Shown piece after piece: positions 55,382-62,695 of a stretch of DNA of 64,000 nucleotides (position 1 is the stretch's first letter; each line of letters starts with the position of its first letter). The translations under genes were made by a program, and so were the position numbers. The notes beneath the pieces were generated by a model, which worked only from the letters and a program-made list of their open reading frames with translations, made no database searches and was not told the DNA's origin. Origin of the DNA: Verrucomicrobiales bacterium. Lineage in GTDB: Bacteria; Verrucomicrobiota; Verrucomicrobiia; Methylacidiphilales; JAAUTS01. The stretch spans positions 186,001 through 250,000 of the forward strand of contig JAIRPN010000013.1 in NCBI GenBank assembly GCA_031256975.1, in the 5' to 3' direction.

Positions 55382-55434
55382 GCAGGGCGCAATATAGTCC
55401 TTGTTTGCGCAAAACCCAACCAATAAATTGGGTC

Positions 55435-56112
55435 ATGGTCGAATTAGTGGTGGCAAGGTACCAGGAGGACATCGCCTGGGTGCGCAATGTGCCGGAAAGC
55501 GTGCGCGCAACCGTGTACAACAAGGGATTGCCCTTGGCGCCGGACTGGCGCGGGGTGATAGTTTTGCCGAACATCGGCCGCGAGGCGCACACTTATTTAT
55601 ATCACATCATTAACCACTACGATTCTTTGGCGGATTTGACCGTGTTCACCCAGGGCAAGCCCTTCGACCACGCGCCGGATTTGCACAAGGTGTTGCGCGC
55701 CGCCGCTAACGGCGAGCTGGAGGTTGGCGACTTCAAATGGCTGGGTTTTTTGGTGGATACGGATGACAAACGCGGGCGCAGGTTGTTCGTGCCGTGGAGC
55801 AAGAATCCGTCGCGGGAGGAGCTGCCGCTGGACGAATTTTACCGGGAATTGTTCGGCGGGGAATCCCCGGAAAGCTTTCGCTTTTACGGCGGGGCGCAGT
55901 TCGTGGTTAGCGCCGCCTGCGTGCGCCGCCGGCCGCGGGAGTTTTACCAGCGGGCGCTGGACTTGGCGGAAAGTTGGCCGCTGGCGGCGCACTGTCTGGA
56001 ACGGCTGTGGGACCGGGTGTTTGGCGTCAGCGGGGTGACGGACGAGTTGATGAACGGCCGGGATACGGTTTATTTAAAACAGATCAAGGATAAGCAACCT
56101 TATGGCTATTGA
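55435..56112 (+). CDS. DUF3431 domain-containing protein
   Basis: VVARYQEDIAWVRNVPESVRATVYNKG...PNIGREAHTYLYHIINHYDSLADLTVFTQGKPFDHAPDL. Confidence 0.8.
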   Translation: MVELVVARYQEDIAWVRNVPESVRATVYNKGLPLAPDWRGVIVLPNIGREAHTYLYHIINHYDSLADLTVFTQGKPFDHAPDLHKVLRAAANGELEVGDFKWLGFLVDTDDKRGRRLFVPWSKNPSREELPLDEFYRELFGGESPESFRFYGGAQFVVSAACVRRRPREFYQRALDLAESWPLAAHCLERLWDRVFGVSGVTDELMNGRDTVYLKQIKDKQPYGY

Positions 56113-57262
56113 ACGAATCTATCTGGATCATCTGGCGACAACCCCGCTGTTAGCGGCGGCGCGTGAGGCGATGCTGCCTTTCCTGCAGGAGGAATTTGGT
56201 CTGCCGATGGGGCTGTACCGCGAGGGTGCCCGCGCGGGCAGGGCGGTGGCCAGGGCGCGTGAGCAACTGGCCGCGATGATTGGCGCGAAACGGGTGGATG
56301 AGATCATCTTCACCTCGAACGGTTCGGAGGCCTGCAATCTGGCGCTGAAGGGGCTGGCGTTCAAGCACGCTAACGGCGGGAAAAGGCACATTGTTTCATC
56401 GTTAGCGGAACATCCGGCGGTGGCGGAGTCGCTGAAGTTTTTGGAGAAACTGGGCTGGAAGATTTCACGCGTCGGCGTCGATGTGGCAGGTTTTGTTGAC
56501 CCGGCGGAAATCGGCAAAGTCTTGCGGCCTGACACGCTGTTGGTGGCCACGCATTTGTCGAACCACGACTCCGGCGCAGTGCAAAGCGTGAAGGAAATCG
56601 CGCGGTTGGCACACGCCAACGGCAGTCTGGTGTTTTGCGACGCGATGACGGCGGGCGGCTGGCTGGCCGTTAGCGTCGGGGATTTGGACGTGGATTTGCT
56701 GTCACTTTCGCCGCATCGTTTTTTCGGACCGAAGGGTGTCGGGGTGCTGTACAAAAGATCGTTGTTGGCGTTGGAATCGCTGATCCACGGCGGCAAGCAG
56801 GAGGACGGGCAGCGGGCGGGTTCGCTTAACGTAGCGGCGATTGTCGGTGCCGGAGTGGCGGCGGAACAGATTGGCGGCGCCATGGCGGATTACGCGGCGA
56901 AGTGCCGTGCATTGACCAAAATCTTGTGGGAGAATATCGAGGCCAAAGTTCCCCAGGTGAAGTTGAACGGCCCGCCGGTCGGCGCTAACCGTGATCCCCG
57001 GCATTTGAATGTCAGCTTTGAGGGGATCGAGGGCGAGGCGCTGATGCTGTGGCTGGATTTGAACGGCATCAGCGTGGCGGCGAACACCGGTTGCGCGACG
57101 CAGACCAGCAAGTTGTCGCCGACGCTGATGGCGATGGGTCTGAGTTCGTCACTGGCGGCGGGGTCGATTTTGCTGTCGCCGTCGCCGGAACAAACGCCCG
57201 GGGAGATGGTGCTTGCCGCTGAGAAAATTGCCAAGGGAGTGGCGAAAATCAGAAGCTTGTAA
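56102..57262 (+). CDS. Cysteine desulfurase (NifS/IscS) family protein with PLP-Lys to Arg substitution
   Basis: IYLDHLATTPL, TSNGSEACNLALKG, LAEHPAV, FCDAMTAGG, SPHRFFGPKGVGVLY (R at Schiff-base K), Cys in NTGCATQTS. Confidence 0.88.
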   Translation: MAIERIYLDHLATTPLLAAAREAMLPFLQEEFGLPMGLYREGARAGRAVARAREQLAAMIGAKRVDEIIFTSNGSEACNLALKGLAFKHANGGKRHIVSSLAEHPAVAESLKFLEKLGWKISRVGVDVAGFVDPAEIGKVLRPDTLLVATHLSNHDSGAVQSVKEIARLAHANGSLVFCDAMTAGGWLAVSVGDLDVDLLSLSPHRFFGPKGVGVLYKRSLLALESLIHGGKQEDGQRAGSLNVAAIVGAGVAAEQIGGAMADYAAKCRALTKILWENIEAKVPQVKLNGPPVGANRDPRHLNVSFEGIEGEALMLWLDLNGISVAANTGCATQTSKLSPTLMAMGLSSSLAAGSILLSPSPEQTPGEMVLAAEKIAKGVAKIRSL

Positions 57263-57306: not shown

Positions 57307-58368
57307 ATGGCCACTCAGGAGCAGATTTTAGAGGCGCTGAAACAAGTTAAATACCCGGGTTATAGTCGCGACATTGTGTCGTTCGGGTTGGTGAAGGGGG
57401 TGGAGTTTGTTGCTCCGAAGGGGACCGTCATTAGCGTTGAACTAAGCACGGCTGACGCCAATATTCCCCGCATCCTGCAGGAACAGATTGTCGAGACGGT
57501 TTGCCGGATTCCGGGATTTTCCGAGGAACAGCGGCCGGTGGATGTGCGGATCAAGGTCAACGCACCGGCGCAACCGGCGGCACAGGCGGGGTCGTTGCCG
57601 CAAACCGGATTGCCGGGGGTGAAACACATTGTGGCGGTGGCCAGCGGCAAGGGCGGCGTCGGCAAATCGACGGTGGCGGCGAACCTGACGGCGGCGTTCA
57701 AGTCGCTGGGGTTCAAGGTTGGCTTGTGCGACTGCGATTTGTACGGGCCGAGCATGGGCCTGATGTTTGGCACTGCGGAACGCCCGACCATGGGCGATGA
57801 CGAGTTGATCAATCCGGTGGAGGTCCAAGGGATCAAGCTGATGAGCATGGGTCTGCTGGTGGAGGATGAATCGCCGGTGATTTTGCGCGGACCGATGGTG
57901 ACGCGTTACACCCAGCAATTTTTGCGCAGCGTGAACTGGGGTGAACTGGACGTGCTGGTGCTGGACTTGCCGCCGGGAACGGGCGACATCCAGTTGACCA
58001 TCGTGCAGACTTTGTCGTTGAGCGGCGCGGTGATTGTCAGCACACCGCAGGAAGTGGCGTTGATCGACGCCCGCAAGGCGGTGAAGATGTTCCACAAGGT
58101 GAATGTGCCGATCCTGGGCATCGTCGAGAACATGAGCTATTTCCTTTGCCCTGATAACAATAAACGTTATGACATTTTCGGCAGCGGCGGCGGCAGGCGG
58201 GAAGCGGAAAAACTGGGCGTTCCGCTGCTGGGTGAGATACCGCTGGAAATGGCCGCACGCGAGGCGGGGGATCAGGGAAAACCGGTGGTTTGGCGTGATT
58301 CGTCAACGCTAACGGCCAAAACTTTCGTTGCGGTTGCGGAAAAACTGAAAAATATCTTATTCGGTTAA
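57307..58368 (+). CDS. Mrp/NBP35 (ApbC) family P-loop ATPase
   Basis: DUF59-like N-terminus; VASGKGGVGKSTVAANL; LDLPPGTGDIQLTIVQTL; NMSYFLCPDNNKRYDIFGSGGG. Confidence 0.95.
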   Translation: MATQEQILEALKQVKYPGYSRDIVSFGLVKGVEFVAPKGTVISVELSTADANIPRILQEQIVETVCRIPGFSEEQRPVDVRIKVNAPAQPAAQAGSLPQTGLPGVKHIVAVASGKGGVGKSTVAANLTAAFKSLGFKVGLCDCDLYGPSMGLMFGTAERPTMGDDELINPVEVQGIKLMSMGLLVEDESPVILRGPMVTRYTQQFLRSVNWGELDVLVLDLPPGTGDIQLTIVQTLSLSGAVIVSTPQEVALIDARKAVKMFHKVNVPILGIVENMSYFLCPDNNKRYDIFGSGGGRREAEKLGVPLLGEIPLEMAAREAGDQGKPVVWRDSSTLTAKTFVAVAEKLKNILFG

Positions 58369-58765: not shown

Positions 58766-59302
58766 GTGCATAAAATTGTAATGGATGCGGCCGCCATTGA
58801 CAGGTCGCTGAATCGTCTCGCCCACGAAATTCTGGAGCGAAGCCCCGAGGGAGTGGCCCTTGGATTTGTCGGTATTCACACGCGCGGCGTGCCACTGGCT
58901 GAGCGCCTTGCCAAATTGACCCAAAAATTCGACCCGTCGCGGCCGGTGCTGCCGGTGGGGCAATTGGATATTTCCTTCCATCGTGATGACATCGGGCGCG
59001 CAAAGCCCGCGCCGAAGATCACCGACATCGCCTTTGACGTGGACAAAGAGCATGTGATTTTGGTCGACGACGTGTTTTTCACCGGTCGCAGCGTGCGTGC
59101 CGCGCTCAACGCCCTGGTCGACATCGGCCGCGCCAAAACCGTGCGACTGGCGGTGCTGGTGGATCGCGGTCACCGGCAGTTGCCGATCCGTGCGGATTAT
59201 GTCGGCAAGAATATTCCCACCTCAATCGAGGAAAAAGTCGAAGTCCGTCTCTCGGAAATCGACGCTAATGACGAAGTCATCGTTAGCGGAGGTACGGTAT
59301 GA
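58766..59302 (+). CDS. pyrR: Bifunctional pyr operon regulator/uracil phosphoribosyltransferase PyrR (GTG start)
   Basis: LGFVGIHTRGVPLAERL, VLPVGQLDISFHRDD, VILVDDVFFTGRSVRAALNAL. Confidence 0.96.
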   Translation: MHKIVMDAAAIDRSLNRLAHEILERSPEGVALGFVGIHTRGVPLAERLAKLTQKFDPSRPVLPVGQLDISFHRDDIGRAKPAPKITDIAFDVDKEHVILVDDVFFTGRSVRAALNALVDIGRAKTVRLAVLVDRGHRQLPIRADYVGKNIPTSIEEKVEVRLSEIDANDEVIVSGGTV

Positions 59303-60234
59303 AATGGACGCGGAAAGATTTCATTGATATCCAAAGTTTGAGCCGTGAGGAGATTGAGCTGGTGCTCGATACGGCGGCTTCGTTCAAGAAGGTGCTGGAA
59401 CGGCCGATCAAAAAAGTTCCCTCGCTGCGCGGCAAAACGGTGGTGAATTTGTTCATTGAACCGAGCACGCGCACGCGCGTGTCGTTTGAACTGGCGGCGC
59501 AGAATTTGAGCGCCGACGTGATCAGCATGGCGGCGGAAAGCAGTTCGTTCAAGAAAGGCGAGACACTGAAGGACACGGCGCTGAATTTGCAGGCGCTAAA
59601 CGCCGAGTTCATTGTCATCCGCCACAGCGCGGCGGGCGCGGCGCAGTTTCTGGCGGAACGCTTGAACGCCCATGTGATCAACGCCGGTGATGGTGCGCAT
59701 GAGCATCCGACGCAGGCGATGCTGGACACCTTTACCATCCGCGAAAAACTTGGGACGCTGGAGGGGAAACACATCTTGATCGTTGGCGATATTCTTTACA
59801 GCCGGGTGGCGCGTTCGGATATCTGGTCGCTGACCAAGCTCGGCGCGAAGGTCACTCTGGTCGGACCGACCACCTTGCTGCCGGAACATTTCCGCGACAT
59901 GGGGGTTGGCGTGGTGCATGACCTCGACAGCGTGCTGCCGCAGGCCGACGTGATCAACCTGTTGCGCATCCAGCACGAGCGCCAGAGCAAGGCGGCATTC
60001 CCGTCGCTCGGGGAATATATCGGCGTGTATGGCCTGACCCGCGAGCGCTTCAAGAAGTGCAAGCCGGACGTGATGATCATGCATCCCGGCCCGATCAACC
60101 GTGGGGTCGAGATCGAAAGTGATCTGGCCGACTGCGGGAATTCGGTGATTTTACAACAGGTAACCAACGGCTTGGCCGTGCGCATGGCGGTACTCTATCT
60201 GGTCAGCGGCGGCGCGGTGGGAGGTGTCGAATGA
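59299..60234 (+). CDS. pyrB: Aspartate carbamoyltransferase catalytic subunit
   Basis: FIEPSTRTRVSFELAAQNL, IRHSAAGAAQFLAER, GDGAHEHPTQAMLDTFT, MHPGPINRGVEI. Confidence 0.98.
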   Translation: MKWTRKDFIDIQSLSREEIELVLDTAASFKKVLERPIKKVPSLRGKTVVNLFIEPSTRTRVSFELAAQNLSADVISMAAESSSFKKGETLKDTALNLQALNAEFIVIRHSAAGAAQFLAERLNAHVINAGDGAHEHPTQAMLDTFTIREKLGTLEGKHILIVGDILYSRVARSDIWSLTKLGAKVTLVGPTTLLPEHFRDMGVGVVHDLDSVLPQADVINLLRIQHERQSKAAFPSLGEYIGVYGLTRERFKKCKPDVMIMHPGPINRGVEIESDLADCGNSVILQQVTNGLAVRMAVLYLVSGGAVGGVE

Positions 60235-61526
60235 GCAAGGCATTTTTATTCAAGGGCGGACGGGTGATCGATCCCGCCAATGGTGAGGACACGGTGCGCG
60301 ATCTCAAGGTCGAGAACGGCAAAATCGTCAAAGAATTTTCCGTCGCTAACGGCGAAATCGAAACCATCGACGCTAACGGCAAGGTGGTTTGCCCGGGCTT
60401 GATCGACATTCACGTGCACTTGCGCGAGCCGGGACAAACCGCCAAGGAAACCATCGCCACCGGGACGCAATCCGCCGCGGCTGGCGGTTTCACCACGGTG
60501 GTGGCGATGCCGAACACGACGCCGCCGGTGGACAGCACGGCGACGGTGAGCTGGATTATCCAGCGAGCCAGGGAAACCGGCGTGGTCAATGTGTACCCGA
60601 CGGGTTGCATTTCGCAGGGCATGGCGGGCGAGTTGCTGGCGCCGATCGGTTCGCTGAAAAAAGCCGGCGTGGTGGCGATCACGGACGACGGCAAGTGCAT
60701 CCAGAACAACGAGCTGATGCGCCGCGCGCTGGAATATGCCAGGATGTTCAACCTGGTGGTGATGGATCACTGCCAGGATTATGCGCTAACGGCGGGCGGG
60801 GTGATGAACGAGGGTTATTGGTCGACGGTGCTGGGATTGAAGGGCTGGCCGGCGATTGCCGAGGAGATTATCATCGCGCGGAATGCGATGCTGGCCGAGT
60901 TGACCGGTTGCCGCGTGCATTGCCAGCATGTCACCAGTGCGGGCGGCGTGCGCATCATCCGCGAGGCCAAGCAGCGCGGGGTACCGATCAGCGGCGAGAT
61001 TTGCGCGCACCATATCGCACTGACCGACGAGTCGCTGAAGGGTTACAATTCGGATTTCAAGATGAATCCGCCGTTGCGCACGCAACGGGATATCGAGGCA
61101 TTATTGACGGGTTTTGCCGACGGCACGATCGAATATCTGGCCAGCGACCACGCACCGCATTGCAATTACGAGAAGGAAGTTGAAATTGCCGACGCGCCGT
61201 TCGGGATTGTCGGGCTGGAGACCGAGTTCGCCCTGTTCAACACCAAGATCGCCAAGGCGGGAATCAGTTCGTTGCCGAAGGTGATCGAGGCGCTAACGGT
61301 GAAGGCGGCCAGGCTGCTGGACCTGCCGAAAGGCACGCTAACGGTGGGCGCCGACGCGGATGTGACGGTCCTTGACCCCGAGTTGCGTTGGACGGTGCGG
61401 AAGACACAATTGCTGTCGAAGTCAAAAAACACGCCGTTTGACGGAACGGAATTGACGGGACGTGCTATTTTTACGATGGTTAGCGGGCGGCCGGTGTGGT
61501 CGCTGGAGAAGGGAATTTTGGTTTGA
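60231..61526 (+). CDS. pyrC: Dihydroorotase
   Basis: CPGLIDIHVHLREPGQTAKETIATGTQSAAAGGFTTVVAMPNT; ASDHAPH; DAPFGIVGLETEF. Confidence 0.97.
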   Translation: MSKAFLFKGGRVIDPANGEDTVRDLKVENGKIVKEFSVANGEIETIDANGKVVCPGLIDIHVHLREPGQTAKETIATGTQSAAAGGFTTVVAMPNTTPPVDSTATVSWIIQRARETGVVNVYPTGCISQGMAGELLAPIGSLKKAGVVAITDDGKCIQNNELMRRALEYARMFNLVVMDHCQDYALTAGGVMNEGYWSTVLGLKGWPAIAEEIIIARNAMLAELTGCRVHCQHVTSAGGVRIIREAKQRGVPISGEICAHHIALTDESLKGYNSDFKMNPPLRTQRDIEALLTGFADGTIEYLASDHAPHCNYEKEVEIADAPFGIVGLETEFALFNTKIAKAGISSLPKVIEALTVKAARLLDLPKGTLTVGADADVTVLDPELRWTVRKTQLLSKSKNTPFDGTELTGRAIFTMVSGRPVWSLEKGILV

Positions 61527-61534
61527 GCGAAAAT

Positions 61535-62695
61535 ATGAAGGCAATATTGGCATTAGAAGACGGAACGGTTTTTCACGGCACCTCGATTGGCGCGAAAGGT
61601 ACGCGTCTGGGTGAGGTTTGTTTCAACACCTCGATGACGGGTTACCAGGAAATTCTGACCGATCCTTCTTACAAGGGACAGATCATTACCATGACTTATC
61701 CCGAAATTGGCAATTACGGTGTCAACGAAAAGGACGTGGAATCCTGGGCTGTGCATGCCTCGGGTTTCGTGGTGCGCCAGCTTTCGCCGTTAGCGTCGAA
61801 TTTCCGCAGCAGCAAGGATTTGGGGTCTTACCTGACCGAGAATGACGTGGTTGGCATCGAAGGCGTGGATACGCGCGCGCTGACCAAGAAGCTCCGCGTT
61901 AGCGGCGCGATGAAGGGCGTGATCACCACCGAAAATGTTTCCGACGAGGAAGCGGTGAAAAAAGCCCGCGATTGGCAGGGAATTGTCGGTGTCGATACGG
62001 TAAAGGAAGTCACCTGCAAGAAATCTTACAAATGGGACGCTAACAACGAGGATCCCGCCAGCTGGTATGACAATTACCAGCTCGCCAACGATCCGACCCT
62101 GGACAAGTTGAAGCCCGCCAAATACAACATCGTGGCGATCGATTGCGGCATCAAATACAACATCCTGCGCCGTTTGCGCGAGCAGGGCCTGGCCTCGACG
62201 GTGGTTCCGGCCACCGCCAGCGCAGCGGAAATTCTGGCGTTGAAGCCGGATGGCGTGTTTCTGGCCAACGGTCCCGGCGATCCGTCGGCCCTGACTTATG
62301 TGCATGAAACAGTGCGCGGACTGCTCGGCAAGGTGCCGTTATTCGGCATTTGCCTCGGACACCAGATGCTGGCCCACGCTTACGGCGGCAAGACCTTCAA
62401 GTTGAAATTTGGCCATCGTGGTGGCAACCAGCCGGTGAAGGATTTGCGCGACGGCAAGGTGACCATCACCTCGCAGAACCATGGTTTCGCGGTGGATTCC
62501 GACTCGCTTGATCCCGGGGAGGTTGAAATTACCCACATCAACCTGAACGACGGCACCTGCGAGGGTATGCGCCACAAGAAATACAACGCCTTCTCGGTGC
62601 AATACCATCCCGAGGCGGCGCCCGGTCCGCATGACGCGAATTATTTCTTCGCCGAATTTCGTAAAGAGATTGAACGATTCAAGGAAAAGATGTAA
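61535..62695 (+). CDS. carA: Carbamoyl-phosphate synthase small subunit
   Basis: AILALEDGTVFHGTSIGAKGTRLGEVCFNTSMTGYQEILTDPSYKGQIITMTYP; FGICLGHQMLAHAYGG. Confidence 0.98.
   Translation: MKAILALEDGTVFHGTSIGAKGTRLGEVCFNTSMTGYQEILTDPSYKGQIITMTYPEIGNYGVNEKDVESWAVHASGFVVRQLSPLASNFRSSKDLGSYLTENDVVGIEGVDTRALTKKLRVSGAMKGVITTENVSDEEAVKKARDWQGIVGVDTVKEVTCKKSYKWDANNEDPASWYDNYQLANDPTLDKLKPAKYNIVAIDCGIKYNILRRLREQGLASTVVPATASAAEILALKPDGVFLANGPGDPSALTYVHETVRGLLGKVPLFGICLGHQMLAHAYGGKTFKLKFGHRGGNQPVKDLRDGKVTITSQNHGFAVDSDSLDPGEVEITHINLNDGTCEGMRHKKYNAFSVQYHPEAAPGPHDANYFFAEFRKEIERFKEKM

Follow-up and report, generated by a model that had tools for sequence, protein, structure and literature searches.

The locus analysed here raises the question of what a protein built like a cysteine desulfurase of the IscS/NifS type can do when the lysine that forms the Schiff base with PLP is missing, and whether such a protein still has a place in Fe-S cluster assembly.

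Gene, product and active-site residues

Analysis of the window (the whole stretch of 64,000 nucleotides of DNA) showed an open frame without interruption at 56102..57262 on the plus strand, and its translation gave a Lys-less class-V aminotransferase/NifS-IscS protein of 386 aa that belongs to the IscU-less branch of the SPHR clade described below. The protein showed full-length homology to IscS/NifS with the class-V aminotransferase fold, and matched Pfam Aminotran_5 at E 3.5e-55. The best NCBIfam family was NifS (TIGR03402) with 323.4 bits, which is below the curated cut-off of 530.75, and IscS (TIGR02006) followed with 247.2 bits, below the curated cut-off of 643.2. The predicted structure (43 sequences) was a complete IscS fold with a mean pLDDT of 93.6, in which pLDDT fell below 50 over at least 3 residues solely at 333-335, beside the loop Cys331. 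The model superposed on A. fulgidus IscS (4hvk) at 1.4 A over 382 columns and on human NFS1 in the ISCU complex at ~1.9 A.

Residue numbers follow E. coli IscS and IscU sequences that we take to be the reference ones, and the numbering of the window protein equals that of E. coli IscS up to residue 206. The IscS numbers agree with those published (PMC9978102).

The PLP-lysine motif of the window protein is LSLSPHRFFGPKG (SPHRFFGPKG), with the His-Arg codons CATCGT at 56714-56719. The first-pass annotation had read an arginine at the position of the PLP lysine, and the alignment agreed: the codon CGT for Arg206 at 56717..56719 (plus strand, as for all codons given here) falls exactly on K206 of IscS, the Schiff-base lysine. 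A different lysine as the PLP site was rejected on this alignment, and the Lys of GPKG was rejected as a substitute because canonical enzymes also have it, beside K206. The same annotation had claimed that the His, Asp and active-site Cys are kept and that Gln has become Thr, and all four were found, namely the PLP-stacking His104 (56411..56413), Asp180 (56639..56641), the loop Cys331 (57092..57094; equal to IscS C328 and invariant in the clade) and Thr183 in place of the catalytic Gln183 (56648..56650). Three changes came in addition to these: His155 replaces N155 (NNE to NHD; 56564..56566), Trp187 stands where canonical IscS has Lys (56660..56662; clade-specific, 51 of 54 members), and Leu357 replaces Arg354, a residue of substrate positioning (57170..57172).

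Extent of the clade and retention of residues

Orthologs from the window's family, at 61-70% identity, all carried SPHR. Profile searches covered Verrucomicrobiota and showed a clade member in 72 of 385 genomes sampled from the class (E <= 1e-120), and a scan of the genome collection with the single window protein gave six loci. All members formed one clade in the tree (support 100/100). The clade is large and spread across the class, and is not a chance mutation. A spread over the whole phylum was rejected, as the loci listed outside the class in a second sample were Lys-bearing canonical copies alone. No description of the clade was found in a literature search, which had subscription journals largely outside its reach.

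At the site of IscS K206, the 54 distinct clade members had R (48), K (3), G (2) or H (1), which gives a basic residue in 52 of the 54. An isolated mutation, which the first-pass annotation had weighed for this site, was not borne out by this survey and was rejected, since R is common to genera and families. Sequencing error was also rejected because the codon at site 206 is CGN in 51 of 57 members and R recurs in the relatives at 61-70% identity. Q183 and N155 were kept in none of the 54 members and R354 in two, and the loop Cys (C328) and D180 were kept in all 54 and H104 in 51. H104, D180, S203, H205 and T/S at 76 and 243 were mostly retained, with T243 itself in 41 of 54. Canonical copies retained K206, Q183, N155, R354, C328, D180 and H104 throughout (31/31).

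The three K-bearing members (L082, L083 and L093, family f19) have the lysine codons AAA/AAG, are nested deep in the Arg clade and are still without Q183 and R354. A basic residue at 206, and not the Schiff base, therefore seems to matter, and the Lys of these members looks like an exchange of one basic residue for another and not like preserved catalysis. In two members of family f7 (L038 in genome G022 and L143 in genome G021), the SxHK motif was wholly erased (FRGCGGAVG and FRGCGGPVG) and His104 was Ser, with the loop Cys retained.

Predicted activity

The activity of E. coli IscS is abolished by mutating His104, Asp180, Gln183, Lys206 or Cys328, with zero desulfurase activity for K206A, Q183E and H104Q, and R354K is active (PMC9978102). 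Two of these five required residues are missing in the clade, and N155 and R354 are lost besides. Because E. coli IscS requires Lys206 and Gln183, desulfurase activity of the clade is, judged from its residues, very unlikely.

His104, Asp180 and most phosphate-site residues remain, and therefore non-covalent binding of PLP, without a Schiff base, would be possible in the window protein. Bound in this way, PLP might support a different reaction or slow desulfuration (for instance of a carboxylate-free substrate), with His104 as the base. The mostly retained residues at 76, 104, 180, 203, 205 and 243 and the basic residue at 206 are in keeping with such chemistry, and the K206A variant of E. coli IscS retains some PLP binding, with slow adduct formation (PMC9978102). 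However, Q183, N155 and R354 are lost too, the K206A, Q183E and H104Q enzymes are inactive as desulfurases (PMC9978102), two members have lost the whole motif and kept the Cys, and A. fulgidus IscS is inactive with the same three losses (PMC7585200); catalysis by PLP bound without a Schiff base is held to be decidedly improbable. The proposal of the first-pass annotation, a PLP-independent scaffold or a repurposed Fe-S enzyme, fared unevenly. Repurposing gained from the clade-wide R, the further catalytic losses and the adjacent IscU and Mrp genes, and independence from PLP lost ground, as His104, Asp180 and most phosphate-site residues are still in place.

Comparison with known systems

A. 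fulgidus IscS, to which the window protein had been likened at the outset, is reported to be devoid of desulfurase activity and to supply a Cys as ligand of the [2Fe-2S] cluster on IscU (PMC7585200). The likeness was upheld. The A. fulgidus protein (PDB 4EB5, 4EB7 and 4HVK; IscS2) shares with the window protein the IscS fold, the loss of Lys206, Gln183 and Arg354 and the retention of the loop Cys. Chain 4eb5 has A for Q183, D for K206, N for H205 and L for R354 and keeps the Cys; the query for this match was a relative's sequence together with an A. fulgidus IscS fragment, and the evidence lies in the residues of the chain and not in the score. The two proteins differ in that A. fulgidus IscS has Asp at 206, Asn at 205 and the canonical N155, whereas the window protein has Arg, His and His at these sites. 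They also differ in that A. fulgidus IscS has an IscU partner, whereas the window's genome is without true IscU and the genomes of 33 relatives have it.

A. fulgidus IscS is archaeal and was placed outside the verrucomicrobial clade (100/100), so common descent was unsupported and the same three losses appear, from this tree, to have arisen at least twice, by convergence. By its sequence, the window protein is a member of the IscS fold family that stands outside the active desulfurases and, by descent, outside the A. fulgidus lineage. In another archaeal protein, Methanosarcina acetivorans IscS1, the catalytic Lys is reported missing as in the window protein, a likeness taken from the published description, and that protein is reported to pair with an IscU (PMC7585200). 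The active IscS/NifS proteins (TIGR03402, TIGR02006) are full-length homologues, and their active-site Lys, Gln, Asn and Arg are absent from the window protein. The minimal ISC system (MIS; IscS and IscU without chaperones) is matched by the IscU-linked relatives, which likewise have iscU and the Lys-less gene and no HscB; however, the S subunit of MIS is described as a cysteine desulfurase (PMC12192291), whereas the Lys-less clade protein is without the catalytic residues.

Genes adjoining the Lys-less gene

A true iscU was located directly upstream of the Lys-less gene in many relatives, and on the opposite side of it in genome G357. The cluster ligands C37, D39, C63, H105 and C106 were intact in all linked IscU proteins (21/21). 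Pattern matching and inspection showed a C-terminal tail of the form SPMWxEFxxGxIDS..., which resembles the tail of E. coli IscS, in 12 of 12 IscU-linked copies, one of which reads SPVW, and in 0 of 31 unlinked ones.

The first-pass annotation had described an overlapping DUF3431 gene and a following Mrp/ApbC gene, and both were as described. The Mrp/ApbC gene, for an Fe-S carrier of the NUBPL type, is at 57307..58368 (plus strand), 44 bp downstream of the Lys-less gene. It was found 3' of the Lys-less gene in 16 of the 40 loci with enough sequence; this linkage occurs in IscU-linked and unlinked lineages and is missing in over half of the loci. A two-hybrid test showed an interaction of H. 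pylori ApbC, an Mrp homologue, with NifS (PMC8144621), which makes contact between Mrp and its Lys-less neighbour plausible. Genes resembling pyrR, pyrB, pyrC and carA follow in this order after Mrp at 58766-62695, and the same pyr genes were seen downstream in the loci of several relatives (clusters 2, 3, 6 and 13).

The DUF3431 gene (E 1.9e-19) is at 55405..56112 on the plus strand, where the frame list gives it a TTG start codon, and it overlaps the start of the Lys-less gene by 11 bp. It was beside the Lys-less gene in the window alone and at no other locus examined, and was rejected as a functional partner. Because the linkage is not conserved, this neighbour is probably irrelevant.

Distribution of IscU and SufB/D

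Among the 73 carrier genomes, 33 contained true IscU and 40 contained none, and in the 33 it adjoined the Lys-less gene wherever the assembly allowed. SufB/D was missing in 31 of the 33 IscU-positive carriers and present in all 40 IscU-less carriers (Fisher p ~1e-18), a p value that overstates the case as the carrier genomes are related; the 73 genomes are not independent observations because IscU linkage needs one change on the gene tree. The same search found SufB/D in every control genome (14 of 14). Missing contigs do not account for the absence of SUF, since one of the SUF-less genomes is a single contig (G266, with a K-bearing member) and many are >90% complete. The sole NifU_N protein found in a SUF-less genome was usually the IscU that is linked to the Lys-less gene. 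This adjacency in relatives without SUF, where IscU is the only scaffold found, suggests that the clade probably takes part in the assembly or transfer of clusters and makes no sulfur itself.

HscB was found in 0 of 35 genomes, with a match in the E. coli control, and a full ISC system was rejected on its absence. Genome G040 (family f8) was the sole well-assembled IscU-linked genome that also had a full SufB/D pair, and a partial SufB/D match was seen in G029.

In those carrier genomes for which the other copies were inspected, an IscS paralog that has the Lys but not the IscU tail was present at another place, and it is the likely sulfur source. With such a paralog at hand, the Lys-less protein might form heterodimers with it as a structural or regulatory subunit, and would either complete the PLP phosphate site of its partner across the dimer interface or direct that partner to IscU. 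T243 of IscS reaches the cofactor of the other subunit. Its retention in most of the clade, together with a length and predicted fold that are fully IscS-like, would suit a subunit of this kind. However, the paralogs are encoded elsewhere in the genome, the Lys-less clade is distant from the Lys-bearing one (35-37% identity within the window's family), and a heterodimer seems unlikely.

The window copy and its genome

The window's genome is ~87% complete. Besides the Lys-less gene it contains a NifS-like copy with the Lys (C12:254950); a second, canonical copy was what the first-pass annotation had proposed to look for. Two different class-V NifS-like genes were observed in tandem in this genome at G000:C12:254140-256074 on the minus strand, one with the canonical Lys and the other just a weak match (L004). 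SufS adjoins a SufU-like protein (C12:295783 and 296958), which is the sole NifU_N protein of the genome, and SufB/D is at C8:292695-295027. True IscU was not found in this ~87% complete genome, four relatives of the same genus gave the same IscU picture, and both the IscU tail and IscU are absent from the window's family.

The dN/dS of the window gene against its relatives was 0.24-0.32. Lower values were obtained for the Lys-bearing paralog (0.15-0.16) and for four pairs of IscU-linked copies (0.03-0.11). The window gene evolves faster than these, yet constraint is clear. In the SUF-bearing genomes without IscU, including the window's, the gene may be a slowly eroding relic of an old IscU partner, with little function left. 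The missing tail and IscU, the raised dN/dS, the long branches and the loss of the motif from some lineages are what erosion would leave, but the frames are intact, the Cys and D180 are kept in every member, dN/dS is well below 1 and the Mrp linkage is retained, and a relic looks quite unlikely.

Proposed role and implications

The preferred reading, to which we give a probability of roughly 60%, is that the Lys-less protein is a non-catalytic IscS which acts as an IscU partner and Cys ligand, and that the window copy is a descendant which lacks IscU and is linked to Mrp, an order of events that we infer. With the Schiff-base Lys, Gln183 and Arg354 gone and the mobile-loop Cys kept, the protein would carry out no PLP-dependent desulfuration. 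The IscU-linked members would dock IscU through the fold and the conserved C-terminal tail, and their loop Cys would either ligate the cluster or relay persulfide. The sulfur would come from the separate Lys-bearing IscS paralog, and Mrp/ApbC would carry the cluster onward. The window's copy, which has no IscU or IscU tail and a full SUF set in its genome, would probably have a Cys-based role with the linked Mrp. A role like that of A. fulgidus IscS is likely for the IscU-linked relatives. It is less certain for the copy in the window, which may work with Mrp or may be in the course of erosion. Several points count against the preferred reading: a protein that never binds PLP would hardly be expected to conserve His104, Asp180 and most of the phosphate site, no true IscU was found in the window's genome as a partner, the IscU linkage amounts to one change on the gene tree, and Mrp is not linked in more than half of the loci.

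For the SUF-less members, a large share of the class, it is an even question whether their sole detected scaffold, one IscU without SufB/D or HscB, adjoins a sulfur-incompetent IscS such that sulfur and scaffold duties are split between paralogs, an arrangement that would have evolved independently of A. fulgidus through loss of the same three residues.

A Lys-less, cluster-ligating IscS has so far been an oddity from A. fulgidus, suspected in one methanogen. A bacterial clade with parallel losses, an adjacent iscU and often no SUF would make the non-catalytic role of IscS directly testable, and the K-bearing L082, L083 and L093 offer a natural test of whether Lys alone matters. The proteins of the clade are easily annotated as cysteine desulfurases, by which the sulfur source of many genomes would be misassigned. 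If the preferred reading is true, sulfur supply and cluster scaffolding would be separable between paralogs.
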